Origin: Oidiodendron maius Zn
Taxonomy: Eukaryota; Ascomycota; Leotiomycetes; Myxotrichaceae
Direction of reading: 5' to 3'
Assembly: GCA_000827325.1 (NCBI GenBank)
Contig: KN832876.1
Location: 1,674,001 to 1,738,000, forward strand
Length of the DNA stretch: 64,000 nucleotides
The translations under genes and the position numbers were made by a program. A model generated the notes under the pieces. It made no database searches. It saw only the letters and a program-made list of their open reading frames with translations, and was not told the origin of the DNA. How positions within the stretch are numbered: position 1 is the stretch's first letter; each line of letters opens with the position of its first letter. Below are positions 20,333-27,444 of the stretch, piece by piece.

Positions 20333-22174
20333 ATGCCGGAAACACGGCCCGCTGTTCTAGATATTGTTCAGAGTAGTGAGAAGCCTGCAGACACTCCAAG
20401 CCCACCGGTACTGGCGGAACATGATACAAAAGAGTTCGGTAGTATCGCGGCTGAGGACACGATAGAGTCTCACGACGTCCCTGGCTCCAGCTCAAGTTCT
20501 CCGGCTTTGGAACGATGGAATAACCCCCGGATTAATATGCATCGCTATTTCACAGCACTCTACAGCTTTATTATAATGGGCATGAATGACGCCGCAACAG
20601 GTGTATGTTTTCAAGACCTACACTGCCCTCCAGTCTTCTAACGTGTTTCCAGGCACTAATTCCCTATGTAAGGTATGCCCATGCCCACAAGGATTATTAT
20701 ATTAAGTTTCAGTTTAGCTAGAAATATATTATAATCTCGACTATACCGTTATTTCAGTTATATTTATCGCACCAGTCATTGCATATATATTTGCCGCCCT
20801 GCTCAACAACAGGATACATATGCGATTTGGACAACGTGGAGTCGCGATTATTTCGCCACTCTGCAGAATCGTTGCGTATATCGTCACCTGCTTCCATCCT
20901 CCGTACCCCGTCCTCCCAATTATATTTACTCTAGCTGGATTTGCAAACGGTCTTGAAGGTGTGCATCTCCCACAACTATCCTCTCTCGCAGCTCTTGAAT
21001 CCTTTTGTTGTCGTCTCTTCACTCAATGGAATTTTCTGGCTGACTTTACAAAGATGGAGGGTGGAATGCAGTAAGAATATTTTAAACTGACCGCATCCCC
21101 TTATGACATTGCTAATGTTCTGATCTTGCAGTGGATTGGGAATATGCAGAATGCGAATGAATGTCTGGGATTCTTGCACGGAGCCTACGGGCTTGGCGCC
21201 ACTCTTTCCCCCCTAATTGCAACGAGTATGGTCACGAAAGGAAACCTTCAGTGGTACTCATTTTATTATGTAATGGTATGTTAACACTCCTGCTTACCTA
21301 CTCACCGTCTTATCAATTCCATCTGTATATATCTCAGTTCCGTATGAGTAAGCTTGCATTCTTACATATGCTATAGGTTGGGCTTGCCGCCGTGGAATTT
21401 CTCTGCTGTTTTCTCTCGTTCCGAACGGCAACGGGAGAAGTTCATCGAGCCAAAAATCCAATGACTGAAACTTCTGAGAAATCGCACACAAGAGAGGCGA
21501 TGCTGAATCCCATCACCTGGGTTTGCGCCATCTTTCTCCTCGGTTATGTTGGCGTCGAGGTGTCTCTCGGCGGCTGGGTCGTGACATTTATGCTCCGCGT
21601 GAGGCGTGGGGATCCCTGGGCCTCCGGCCTTGTTGCAACAGGGTTTTGGCTAGGAATCACCGTGGGGCGTATTGTTCTAGGCTTTGCCACGGGGAAGATT
21701 GGAGAGAAGGCCGCTATCGCGATATATTTGGTCCTCAGCATGGCATTGGAGTTGTGTTTTTGGCTGATCCCAAGCTTTGTCGCGAGTGCGATCTTTGCGG
21801 GGTGGCTGGGGTTCTTTCTCGCGCCTTTATTTCCAGCTGCCATTGTGGTAGCGACTAAATTGCTGCCGCCCAGGTTGCATGTCAGTGCTATTGGATTTGC
21901 GGCGGCATTTGGAGGTGGAGGGGCAGCCCTTTTCCCATTTGCTGTTGGAGCTATTGCACAAGTGAAAGGAGTTCAAGTTCTCCAACCTATCGTATTGGCG
22001 TTCTTGGCTATGATATTAGCGCTTTGGAGCCTTCTTCCTGGTGGATTTAGGAAAAAAGGTTTAGAAGAGGCCCGTCAAGCTCGGGAGAATAGAACGGATA
22101 GAACAGAGGAGGGTCACAGGAGAGGCATATTAGGAAGTTTCAGGAATTTGAGAGAAAAGATTGGCATTGCCTAG
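20333..22174 (+). CDS. Major facilitator superfamily transporter (BSC6-like)
   Basis: Six exons: 20333-20602, 20653-20667, 20718-20958, 21054-21070, 21132-21275, 21377-22174. They join to 494 aa. The first ~70 residues are a Ser/Pro-rich cytosolic tail. Twelve hydrophobic segments follow, starting at YFTALYSFIIMGMNDAATG. Typical MFS features are GQRGVAII after TM2 and FLHGAYGLGATLSPLIAT around TM5. Exons 2 (15 nt, ALIPY) and 4 (17 nt) are microexons; including them restores the conserved LIPYLE and the GLED...WNAWIGNMQNAN junctions. Fungal relatives are often annotated as bypass-of-stop-codon protein 6 or general MFS; the substrate is unknown. The loop before TM7 carries a charged linker (EKSHTREA). 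Likely a plasma or internal membrane protein. Confidence 0.88.
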
Positions 22175-22638
22175 GATGAATGTTGAAAGTCGGGCGTTGC
22201 AGGTCGCCTTGGCTCTTGAGACAGCTCATGATAGGAACCGACTAGGGTTCGGGTGGGCATCAGACGGAAATGTATATAAAACAATTACTCAAGCGTATAT
22301 CCGCCGAGTCGGTTCTTCGTTCCCTTTCCCGAGCCGTGCCGAAAGCCGTACCCGCCGTCTTTACCGAGCCCCTTATTCCCGAACACGATTTTCGGAGGCC
22401 CCCACTATTATGAGGTACAATGCCAGGGAATCTTGCTCACGCTCCATAATGGGATGATGCATAATGCTTAATAGTCACGATCATCATTGGCAGGAAATTT
22501 CAACAACTTACTGTACATAACATCGTCCCCACTCTCTTATCCTCTCTCCTCTCCCACCCCACTACTCCCTTCAAGTTCAACCGCAACCAAACTCTTCGAA
22601 ATCAAACTTCACCACTCAGCAAAAACGTCCATATATAA
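22175..22638. other. Intergenic region MFS / THI5
   Basis: 3' flank of the MFS gene and promoter of the thiamine gene. A C/T-rich stretch (22525-22575) precedes the putative transcript start. No ORF is supported. Confidence 0.4.
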
Positions 22639-22707
22639 ATGCGCAGTACGTTAACGGCAGTTGAAAGCGTGCCTCTTCCACCATGGACATTCTTCAGTTC
22701 GAGGTAA
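22639..22707 (+). other. Upstream ORF 1 in the THI5 leader
   Basis: ATG at 22639 opens 22 codons and ends with TAA at 22705-22707, which overlaps the proximal 5' splice site. If the distal donor at 22646 (GTACGT) is joined to the acceptor ending 22934, this uORF shrinks to ATG plus four codons, ending at TGA 22943-22945, before the main ATG. Both readings come from the sequence; use in vivo is inferred. Confidence 0.45.
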
Positions 22708-22806
22708 AGTATAACAGCATGACGGGTGGTCCGGGCTTTCCCATCCCTCTCCTCTCTGGATCCCCGCCTCTGTCTTCTCCCAAGGAAAAGCAAGAGTAGT
22801 GAGGCC
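22683..22806 (+). other. Upstream ORF 2 in the THI5 leader
   Basis: ATG at 22683 in a good context (CCACCATGG). Spliced from the proximal donor at 22704 to the acceptor ending 22934, its frame crosses the main THI5 ATG out of frame and stops at 22983-22985, which should block THI5 translation. Unspliced, it runs through the intron to a TAG near 22800. Splicing from the distal donor removes it. Confidence 0.45.
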
Positions 22807-22934
22807 TGAGGGTGAAGGATGGGGACGCCTGAGATCTGAGATTATACCGTAGAACTTGATCTGAGATAATTCCAGCGAGAAGAACATGCTTCCTCCAATC
22901 CCCCATCCTGTTACATATCCTAATCTCTGTTCAG
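22704..22934 (+). other. 5' UTR intron carrying the TPP aptamer, with alternative donors
   Basis: Proximal donor GAG|GTAAAG at 22704; branch-like CCTAATC near 22919; acceptor TGTTCAG ending 22934, 23 bases before the THI5 ATG. A second, distal donor CGCA|GTACGT lies at 22646. The aptamer sits between donor and acceptor, as in fungal NMT1 genes, where ligand-free aptamer masks the proximal donor. Intron boundaries are inferred from consensus. Confidence 0.65.
22799..22884 (+). promoter_or_regulatory. Thiamine pyrophosphate (TPP) riboswitch aptamer
   Basis: The conserved TPP-aptamer pieces occur in order. CTGAGA at 22836-22841 is followed by ATACC at 22844-22848. Next comes ACTTGATCTGAGATAAT with CCAGCG (22872-22877), close to the consensus ACCTGATCTGGATAATGCCAGCG. 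GGGTGAAGG (22810-22818) can pair with the ATACC side as P2. The fungal P3 arm is variable, and P1 pairing was not resolved by eye. It lies in the 5' UTR intron of THI5, as expected for control of alternative splicing by TPP. Confidence 0.85.
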
Positions 22935-22957
22935 GTGCTTCGTGATCTGCAAGAAAG

Positions 22958-24272
22958 ATGTCGACTGATAAGATCACCTTTTTGATGAACTGGTAAGGTT
23001 GACATTTTACTTCAGAATTTGAGCCTGAAAGGCGGCTTCGCGGTAGAGAAGCGGATTACTGACAACGAGCTAGGCACGCAACGCCTTACCATGCACCCAT
23101 CTACATTGCCCAGAAATTGGGATATTTTGCCGACGAAGGCATTAAAGTAGCTCTTCTAGAACCCAATGACCCTAGCGGTTCGTTTCGCTAGACAAATGAT
23201 GTCTCAGGAGAAGTGCTAACTTGCCATAACAGATGTGACAGAGATCATCGGCTCCAGTAAAGTGGACATGGGCTTCAAAGCCATGATTCACACTCTGGCA
23301 GCGAAGGCTCGTGGCTTTCCAGTTACTTCCATTGGATCTCTTCTGGATGAGCCCTTCACCGGAGTGGTGTACCTCGAGGGTAGTGGGGTCACCACCGACT
23401 TTCGCAGCCTCAAGGGTAAGAGGATTGGCTACGTCGGCGAATTTGGAAAGGTATGGGAATGGGGAATCTCTGACCTTACCATGATGTGATGCATATGGAT
23501 ATAGCAAGAGCTAACATCCTGAAATAGATCCAGATTGATGAATTGACAAAGCACTACGGGATGGAGCCTACTGACTACGAGGCCGTCCGATGTGGAATGA
23601 ACGTCTCCAAGGCGATCATCGAGGGCAGCATTGACGCTGGCATCGGACTGGAGAATGTTCAGATGGTCGAGCTCGAGGAGTGGCTCGCCGGCCAGGGACG
23701 ACCCCGATCTGATGTGCAGATGCTCAGGATTGATGAGCTGGCGGAGCTGGGGTGCTGCTGCTTCTGCAGCATCCTCTACATCGGTACGCACTTTTGCTGA
23801 TTCTGTTTATTGTGGTGAGAGAAATTGACAGGTCCCAACTAACCTTCATGGCCCAGCCAACGACACCTTCCTTGCCAAGAACCCCGAGCAGGTCAAGAAA
23901 TTCATGAGGGCAGTCAAGCGCGGCACCGACCATGTGCTCGCGTCCCCCGCCGCGGCGTACAAGACATACATCGACATCAAGCCTGAGATGGCGTCGGTGG
24001 TCAACACCAAGATCTTCGAACGCTCCTACGCGTACCTCTCGAAGGATCTGAAGAACGTGCAGCGCGACTGGGCAAAGGTCACGGCGTATGGCAAGCGCCT
24101 GGGCGTCTTGCCCGCGGACTTCACGCCCAACTACACCAACGCGCATCTTCAGTGGGCACTGGAGGGCGACTCGGCGGACCCGACGGGCGACCAGAAGCGC
24201 ATGGTGGTCTTGCAGGAGCAGGTGGCGCGCGAAGGAGGCTTCCGCCGGCTCCAAGTCAATGCGACGGCGTGA
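22958..24272 (+). CDS. THI5: 4-amino-5-hydroxymethyl-2-methylpyrimidine phosphate (HMP-P) synthase
   Basis: Five exons: 22958-22992, 23074-23177, 23233-23450, 23528-23783, 23857-24272. They join in frame to 342 aa, the normal length for the THI5/NMT1 family. The start [12 protein letters not shown] matches the family. Lys62 (PLP Schiff base) and His66 (the residue consumed to build the pyrimidine) fall at exactly the positions known for yeast enzymes, in GFKAMIHTL. The conserved iron-related CCCFC motif is present in LGCCCFCSI. The fold is a periplasmic-binding-protein-like domain. The enzyme makes the pyrimidine half of thiamine from PLP and its own histidine in a single turnover; cytosolic. 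A TPP riboswitch in the leader intron indicates repression by thiamine. Relatives in other fungi are called nmt1, thi5 or thi11. Confidence 0.96.
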
Positions 24273-25247: not shown

Positions 25248-27444
25248 ATGGCCACCATCGCGCTTCCCCGCGCCAGCAGCCATCCGCGATCGCCCTCTCC
25301 ACGCCCCTTAGCCTCCATCCTCAGCCTCGACAACATCAATACCGCCGCAGCATGTCCTATTCCCATCCCCAACAAGCATCTGCCCGTCTGCCCGCCCGGC
25401 CCCGCGCCCGCCGAGGCCCCCCAGACCCCACCGCAATCGCCACCGTCCAAGGAGGCCACGCTCCCCCCGCGATCCCTCCTCCACCCCCCAGATAACTACA
25501 AGCGGCTGTCCTGGGGCCATCACCCCATCTACGAGATCGACGCCGCCGGCGTGGCGGCGGCCCTCGACCACCTGGCGCGGCAGCCCCTCCCCGACCCCAC
25601 GCAAGTCTTCCCCTGGTTTCATGGCCTCCACCCCAACAACCATATCCAGCTGGCATTCTTCATTGCACGCCGGCGGAGCTTGCGGAAGGTCCCCAAGTGC
25701 TGGCGAGGCATCACCGTAGTGAAGGCAGGTGGGGATCTAAGCTGTGCGCGGCTGAAGGGCGCGTTGGCCCCGGACGAGATCCTCCAGCAGACCGCCAGCG
25801 GGGCCACCTTCCGCGATGTCGACCCCAAGGAGGGATTCTCGGTCAGGAACTTCCAGATCCAGGCGGCCAAGTCGGCGTCCCTCTCGGATATTCTGGTGTA
25901 TGGGAGTGACGACACCGAAGTACAGAGCCTGGCACGAGACGTGGCTGCTGCACAGCATGCGTGGAGGCAGATGCACGAAGAGAAGGGCCTGGAATTGCCC
26001 CGATACAACACGTTCGCTTGTACAAGCCCCTTCAGCGAGTTCGAAGAACTATACCCCGATATCGTTTCAACCAACGCGGCTGGGCAGATGACCGGCCGAG
26101 TCATGGATTTCTTCCATCAGGAGCGGCTAGAGATGTGTGCCATGACGAAGGCTTCTGAGATAGATCATAATGTTTGGTTAGGTCCCACCCCGGACCCCGC
26201 AATACACACGACATTGGGTGGGAGCGATCAGCCGCAATTCGACATTCTGATCGAATGTAGTGACCTGGGCCGCATGGACCCGTTTGCCCTGAGAGCCATT
26301 GCGGAGGGCAGCCACGAGATGACCGGCCAACCCGTATATCTGGAATTCCCCTCTTCCGGCAGCATCATCCCCCCAAGCTGGTCTCACTCGGAAGCCGACG
26401 GTATTCTCGAATCGTGCAAATGGCTCTACCATCTATCTCATGGCACGCTTCCGCAATCTGCTCCTAGCCGGCAAGTAGATTCCCAGGGAGACTCTCCTAT
26501 GCCTTTCCCATCCTCGCCATCGCCTCCACCGTCAAAGAGAACGGAGCGAAAGATCCTTATTCATTGCACAGACGGCTACACTGAGTCTACCCTCTTCGGC
26601 CTCTCCTACTTTAGTTACGCCACCGGTCTCCCTATACCTACTGCATGGCTTGATCTGCATGTCTCCAAGCAGCGAAATTTCTTCGCCTACCCATCAGACG
26701 TTGCCCTTCTGACTTCCCTCGCACCGCGACTCGTTTCTGAATCACCCGTTCATGCATCCAAGTCTCCAGAAGAGATAAAAGCTCTCACAGCGAATGAACC
26801 CCAGTGGATTAAGAATATAGACGGCTCTCTCCCTTCTCGCGTTACCAATTACATGTATCTGGGAAACTTAGGCCATGCGAATAATCCCGATCTATTGAGG
26901 GAGATGGGGATACGGCAGATCTTAAGTGTGGGTGAGACGGCTACATGGAAAGACGGAGAGATGTCAAAGTGGGGTGCGGAGAACGTAATGGTGGTGCAGA
27001 GGGTGCAGGACAATGGTGTTGATCCTTTGACCGAGGAAATTGAGGGGTGCCTGGAGTTTATTGGTAGGTCTGCTCCTTCTCCTCGGACTACTGCTCCCTT
27101 CAAACCGGACAATATGCCTTGCTGACAAAGTACTAGACCGTGGTAGAGCAAATAATACGGCAACGCTCGTCCATTGCCGTGTCGGGGTGTCGCGCAGCGC
27201 GACCATCTGTATTGCGGAAGTGATGCGATCACTTGGGTTCTCCTTTCCCCGTGCCTATTGTTTCGTCCGGGCTCGACGACTGAACGTCATCATACAGCCC
27301 CACCTCCGCTTCTCATACGAACTCCTGAAATGGGAAGAGAAGCTGAGGGCCGAGAGGAATGGTAAAGGGCAATTCAAGAGGGAGTTGGAGTGGCCAGATA
27401 TAGCGAGGGAGGTGGCTGCTATGAATAAACCGTACGCGAGATGA
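25248..27444 (+). CDS. PPS1: PPS1-like dual-specificity protein phosphatase
   Basis: Two exons, 25248-27063 and 27137-27444, join to 707 aa. The ATG sits in a strong context (ACCATGGCC); no in-frame ATG lies upstream. Residues 1-85 are Pro/Ser-rich. The large middle region (about 90-530) is the PPS1-specific part, including an inactive phosphatase-like block around ILIHCTDGYTESTLFGLSYF, where the C-x5-R pattern appears altered (C-x5-T). The C-terminal catalytic domain has TNYMYLGNLGHA and the signature HCRVGVSRSA, with Cys619 and Arg625 split from the rest by the intron. Yeast Pps1 removes phosphate from Tyr and Ser/Thr and affects S-phase progression; the same role here is inferred. It is convergent with RPA190. 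Confidence 0.9.

Follow-up and report, generated by a model that had tools for sequence, protein, structure and literature searches.

Passages of two papers present TPP riboswitches as the one class of riboswitch that has been identified in eukaryotes (PMC8786325, PMC5997356). In the type I fungal form, as sections of PMC5882874 describe it, the riboswitch lies in a 5' UTR intron whose donors, S1 and S2, flank a uORF, with an AG downstream. Portions of three papers state that in Neurospora NMT1 the P4/P5 part of the riboswitch pairs with the region of the proximal donor at low TPP (PMC5997356, PMC5882874, PMC7404189), and in a passage of one of them the branch site is said to be repressed (PMC7404189).

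The window analysed here is a 64-kb stretch of DNA from Oidiodendron maius, and the leader of its THI5 gene shows no visible difference from the type I arrangement as outlined in PMC5882874. A 5' UTR intron has two donors that bracket the start of a uORF and a single AG farther 3', all of which are present as sites and predicted to be used, and P4/P5 is complementary to the proximal donor region with a modest excess over chance. As described in passages of PMC5997356 and PMC7404189, the likeness to Neurospora crassa NMT1/THI5 (NCU09345) extends to the gene, the leader intron, the two donors and the uORFs kept by proximal splicing, as well as to the pairing of the riboswitch with the second donor region. 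When set against NMT1 as published, rather than against the Neurospora sequence itself, the O. maius leader differs in that its ON product keeps a five-codon uORF, that two OFF uORFs overlap the start, and that P5 is bulged.

Based on the reading frames, the splice sites, the identity of THI5, an Rfam match and an aptamer that is recovered as the lowest-energy fold, we consider it very probable that the THI5 leader intron contains a functional type I fungal TPP splicing riboswitch that works through donor masking and uORFs. Two further TPP elements in the same genome, one of them 5' of THI4 with a similar layout, also argue for this reading, as do the complementarity of donor and P4/P5 in both the THI5 and THI4 leaders and the same mechanism published for NMT1. 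The THI5 leader would then be a clear further case of a eukaryotic TPP riboswitch, and one that lies under Rfam's own threshold.

The sequence elements, the reading frames and the identity of the gene were observed directly, and the features of the leader and gene are as follows.

22639-22641, + strand: upstream ATG 1, opening a 5-codon uORF after distal splicing and a 32-codon uORF over the THI5 ATG after proximal splicing
22646-22651, + strand: distal 5' splice site GTACGT (sequence script; use predicted)
22683-22703, + strand: upstream ATG 2, context ACCATGG, with the first exon part of its uORF (script)
22704-22709, + strand: proximal 5' splice site GTAAAG (sequence script; use predicted)
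22920-22924, + strand: likely branch site CTAAT (read from the sequence)
22930-22934, + strand: common acceptor TTCAG (sequence script)
22958-24272, + strand: THI5/NMT1 gene, 342 aa (Pfam, PDB and genome-copy evidence)
22958-22992, 23074-23177, 23233-23450, 23528-23783 and 23857-24272, + strand: THI5 exons, placed by eye, with a joined frame open for 342 codons

Judged from its sequence, the gene is a complete THI5/NMT1. Its product matched the Pfam NMT1 family (7.8e-76) and, over positions 1-338, a solved THI5 structure in the PDB (8.9e-155). Both the NMT1/THI5 domain and the CCCFC motif, which we take to be a mark of THI5/NMT1, are present. A 61-residue piece used as query located THI5 at one place in the genome (45.9 Mb, 58 contigs). 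Just 5' of the THI5 leader, on the same strand, lies part of an MFS transporter gene (21461-22174; Pfam MFS_1 8e-11).

A script placed the donors at 22646 and 22704, the acceptor string CTCTGTTCAG with its last base at 22934, and the THI5 start codon at 22958, and the donors and acceptor coincide with those of the first-pass annotation. CTAAT at 22920-22924 is presumably a branch-site motif. The consequences that the annotation had drawn for the two splice products also held. Splicing from the distal donor removes ATG22683 and leaves ATG22639 as the short frame MRSAS*, whose stop ends at 22945, 12 bases 5' of the THI5 ATG. Splicing from the proximal donor leaves the ATG22683 uORF running out of frame across the THI5 ATG to a stop that ends at 22985. 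Additionally, the ATG22639 uORF of the proximal product crosses the THI5 ATG out of frame (32 codons, stop ending at 22968), so that two frames are blocked and not one; this second blocking uORF is an addition to the earlier anatomy. In the unspliced leader there are five short uORFs, all of them ending before the THI5 ATG. Among the three products read, the distal product alone is without an overlapping or long uORF.

This last result bears on whether the distal donor is used at all. A TATA-like string, TATATAAA, occupies 22632-22639, overlaps ATG22639 and is a possible TATA box; if it were a core promoter, transcripts might start 3' of the distal donor, and the choice would lie between retention and splicing from 22704 only. 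We regard this as very improbable, since GTACGT is a good fungal donor, since by eye the stretch at about 22520-22630 is pyrimidine-rich and then CAA-rich, which we take to be the look of a fungal transcription start region, and since the one product free of overlapping or long uORFs requires the distal site.

A covariance search of the kind proposed in the first-pass annotation found a match, but its score of 25.9 bits falls below the RF00059 cut-off of 54.3 bits, which is a curation threshold. The cmscan match covers 22799-22901, with E 0.0075 in a search of 701 bases and E 0.68 in the whole window, and at the Rfam gathering threshold cmscan gave no RF00059 match in the THI5 leader. The alignment is good in its 3' half; the 5' half, which begins at 22799, appears to be wrongly threaded when compared with the sequence upstream, where a better 5' half, GCATGACGGGTG, is found at 22717. 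The better 5' strand reads AGCATG ACGG G T G (22716-22728), with about 110 nt of P3 arm between it and TGAGAT (22837). The corrected extent, 22716-22890, is an addition to the earlier anatomy, and P1 starts 12 bases 3' of the proximal donor's first base, 22704.

22716-22890, + strand: TPP aptamer, from the P1 5' strand to the P1 3' strand (covariance match, fold, descriptor)
22716-22721, + strand: P1 5' strand AGCATG, pairing with 22885-22890 (fold)
22722-22725, + strand: P2 5' strand ACGG, pairing with 22847-22850 (fold)
22728-22836, + strand: long P3 arm (fold, pair list)
22837-22842, + strand: J3/2 TGAGAT, presumably the thiamine-pocket motif (covariance match, descriptor)
22855-22882, + strand: P4/P5 arm, in which A22864 is bulged and a further single base follows the CG of J5/4 (covariance match, pair list)
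22885-22890, + strand: P1 3' strand CATGCT (pair list)

The minimum-energy fold computed for 22714-22895 consists of P1 (6 bp), P2 (4 bp), a long P3, P4 and P5, and thus contains the P1-P2-P3 / P4-P5 three-way architecture of RF00059. It follows the consensus except in the register of P4. In the computed P4, CTTG pairs with CGAG and the CG of J5/4 is therefore paired, unlike in the consensus form, where CTTG pairs with GAAG, the CG is free and one extra base is unpaired. The stability of the stretch is only modestly above that of shuffled sequences (z -1.77; 12 of 200 as low). The conserved RF00059 segments are present: TGAGAT at 22837, AT at 22859, TAAT in L5, and CCAG CG at 22872-22877. An architecture descriptor matched this place alone on both strands of the 64-kb window and was passed by 2 of 300 Markov-1 sequences (64 kb, one strand each); the descriptor was written with THI5 in view, allows both THI5 insertions and is not independent of this case, and the 5' half that it picked in one of the sister elements described below (L001) is probably not the real one. 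The location of the aptamer inside the THI5 leader intron makes an origin by chance still less likely.

Elsewhere in the window, the pattern GCATGANSGGGTG matched at 26743-26755 on the minus strand. This was rejected as an aptamer 5' half, the pattern being one base too long for THI5. The string itself, GCATGAACGGGTG, has 0.01 matches expected by chance, no Rfam match was found near it in the window cmscan (E up to 5), and it is probably a coincidence.

A genome search with RF00059 at an E limit of 10 gave four matches: L001 (41.3 bits), L002 (33.1 bits), the THI5 leader (25.9 bits) and L004 (19.2 bits). The last (G000:C6, E 5.2) was taken as a chance match. All three TPP elements found miss the Rfam cut-off, and in THI5 and L002 this is likely due to the long P3 arm. 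L002 (G000:C3, minus strand) lies in the leader of the THI4 gene (Pfam Thi4 5.4e-46). Its aptamer, by reading, resembles that of THI5 in P1 (GCATGA/TCATGC), in TGAGATCAT and CTTGATCTGGATAATACCAGCG, in its long P3 and in its complementarity to the proximal donor; P2 is ACCG/CGGT, with one pair changed on both sides relative to THI5 (C-G for G-C). A distal donor-like GTACAT and a proximal donor-like GTATTT just 5' of the aptamer were also read in this leader, together with a uORF, MASKHWNYP, that is kept by the proximal site only. The THI4 element is unlike THI5 in that its P5 is unbulged, its uORF ends before the proximal donor, and the lowest-energy fold computed for its stretch is non-canonical. 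In L001 the lowest-energy fold is the canonical aptamer.

The proposed mechanism further requires pairing between the sensing arm and the proximal donor, and a stretch next to this donor is a candidate masking element not included in the earlier anatomy.

22675-22703, + strand: donor-side stretch complementary to P4/P5, candidate masking element (-19.3 kcal/mol duplex)

For 22675-22717 and P4/P5, the best computed duplex has an energy of -19.3 kcal/mol; it stops at 22703, the last base of the exon, and covers two bases of the second uORF's start codon (22683). Its energy was equalled by 18 of 500 donor-side shuffles and by 34 of 3965 window segments. When a longer aptamer stretch was used, the donor duplex reached -22.2 and was statistically weaker, with 44 of 500 shuffles as good. 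Among twenty 32-mers slid along the leader, 22672-22703 paired best with P4/P5 (-20.0), and the distal region of THI5 showed no complementarity (-8.3; 485 of 500 shuffles as low). For the THI4 proximal donor and P4/P5, 31 of 500 shuffles and 88 of 3965 segments, taken from slightly different stretches, were as low; in THI4 a fairly good duplex with P4/P5 was obtained for the distal donor as well (-17.7; 98 of 500 shuffles as low). The complementarity of donor and P4/P5 thus exceeds chance modestly, in two leaders and where the mechanism predicts it. Specific co-adaptation of donor and P4/P5 in THI5 and THI4 gained no support from cross-pairing, where the results were mixed: the THI5 donor paired more weakly with the THI4 P4/P5 (-16.0 vs -19.3), and the THI4 donor paired more strongly with that of THI5 (-20.7 vs -18.7). 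About 29 bases of the THI5 leader would have three roles at the same time: starting a uORF, flanking the donor and pairing with P4/P5.

The first-pass annotation had proposed control of the Neurospora NMT1 type, and the sequence elements required for it are present: THI5, a leader intron, donors flanking a uORF start, an acceptor, an aptamer and the complementarity. The shut-off it envisaged, in which thiamine acts through splicing on translation, is the established Neurospora mechanism. By analogy, TPP would bind the O. maius aptamer, and thiamine would determine donor choice and translation. When TPP is scarce, P4/P5 would pair with 22675-22703, which would hide the proximal donor and some of the start codon of the second uORF. 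Splicing would then proceed from the distal donor, and the product, carrying only the five-codon uORF in a weak context, would allow THI5 to be made. When TPP is bound, P4/P5 would be drawn into the aptamer and the proximal donor freed; the product would keep two uORFs, in two frames and both across the THI5 ATG, and little THI5 would be made.

Folds of the whole leader were computed with an energy model that ignores the ligand and tertiary contacts. The ensemble energy was -107.3 kcal/mol unconstrained, -103.4 with the masking duplex forced and -100.5 with the aptamer forced. Since the forced states lie 3.9 and 6.8 kcal/mol, respectively, above the unconstrained ensemble, the computed optimum corresponds to neither of the functional states; the unconstrained fold is nearly without aptamer, with P1, P2, P4 and P5 pairs at or near 0. 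With the aptamer forced, the proximal donor became no more accessible (mean unpaired 0.45 to 0.40), the distal donor became slightly more so (0.33 to 0.41) and the branch site opened (0.80 to 0.97), in contrast to the repression of the branch site reported for Neurospora in a passage of PMC7404189. The sole large change was at the acceptor, which closed (0.63 to 0.24). Donor opening of the kind the mechanism asks for was not reproduced in these forced-aptamer leader folds, where the donor changes were contrary to it. Overall the computation points to competing pairings and does not prove the switch itself.

Two small oddities of the THI5 aptamer lie in the P4/P5 arm. That P5 (CTGAGATAATTCCAG) carries one extra base had been noted in the first-pass annotation and is seen at 22861-22875, where P5 reads CTGaG ATAATT CCAG and A22864 is unpaired in the aptamer. 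The unbroken 4-bp P5 that is usual for RF00059, and is not a known requirement, is therefore absent. A second single-base insertion, after the CG of J5/4 (CG-A-GAAG), adds to the earlier anatomy. As a comparison set we used the two same-genome sister elements and bacterial aptamers. The bacterial baseline comprised 32 loci (L010-L041) from 49 distinct TPP matches, pooled from a search with 3 matches and a search of 60 genomes with 48, two of which were shared; the 32 are mostly the best-scoring of the 49 matches, and the sample leans to canonical forms. P5 was unbulged in all 32 loci, 31 of them read by a loosened parser that allowed one mismatch in an unbulged P5 and none in a bulged one, and L040 by a stricter one (stricter parsers read 5 and 17 of the 32). 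In 31 bacterial strings the CG is followed directly by a TAGG-like strand without the extra base of J5/4. Both sisters also have an unbulged P5, which in L001 has a different sequence (CAAG/CTTG) that still pairs.

Within the genome, CTTGATCTGN{0,2}GATAATNCCAGCG gave two matches, one bulged (THI5) and one unbulged (THI4). The bulged-P5 pattern GATCTGNGATAATNCCAGCG, which represents one exact sequence form, had 0 matches in viral contigs. A pattern one base longer had two matches in genome contigs, where cmscan found no TPP element and one 6S RNA, and these were set aside. Among the titles and opening lines of abstracts listed in a literature search, none dealt with a P5 bulge in TPP aptamers of fungi.

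The two insertions might weaken TPP binding. Together with the low Rfam score and the unbulged P5 of all 32 bacterial loci and both sisters, they are what would be expected of a relic aptamer in which TPP sensing has been abolished, a single donor is used constitutively and THI5 is controlled transcriptionally. We consider such decay improbable because P1, P2, J3/2 TGAGAT, L5 TAAT, the 3' strand of P5 and the CG are all retained, and because the splice and uORF layout and the masking complementarity are intact. There is a similarly small chance that both insertions are assembly errors and that the true aptamer is canonical, as each is a single base and the genome's THI4 element is canonical; however, long homopolymers are absent from both insertion sites, and the intact THI5 frame of 342 codons indicates that the nearby sequence is of good quality.

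If the riboswitch is functional, as we prefer, the bulge may have a role of its own. A22864 pairs with U22694 in the computed masking duplex, which suggests tuning. A base that is bulged in the bound aptamer yet paired in the masking duplex would shift the balance towards ON, and more TPP would be needed to shut THI5 than THI4; we think it unlikely that the bulge represents such tuning and not decay. The bulge provides a natural test of the constraint on a sensing arm with two pairing partners. CTGAGAT occurs three times in 40 bases, at 22829 and 22836 (a tandem pair at J3/2) and at 22861 (the bulged P5), and the bulge makes P5 resemble J3/2.

By eye, the third TPP element (L001:1315-1658) is intronic, in a gene for a putative membrane transporter; two pieces of the putative transporter gave no Pfam match at E 0.001. 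At about 1318 in L001, GCGGCGTAAAC is able to base-pair with the 3' strand of P1 (-17.2 kcal/mol, computed without a control), in the manner of the type II alpha element.
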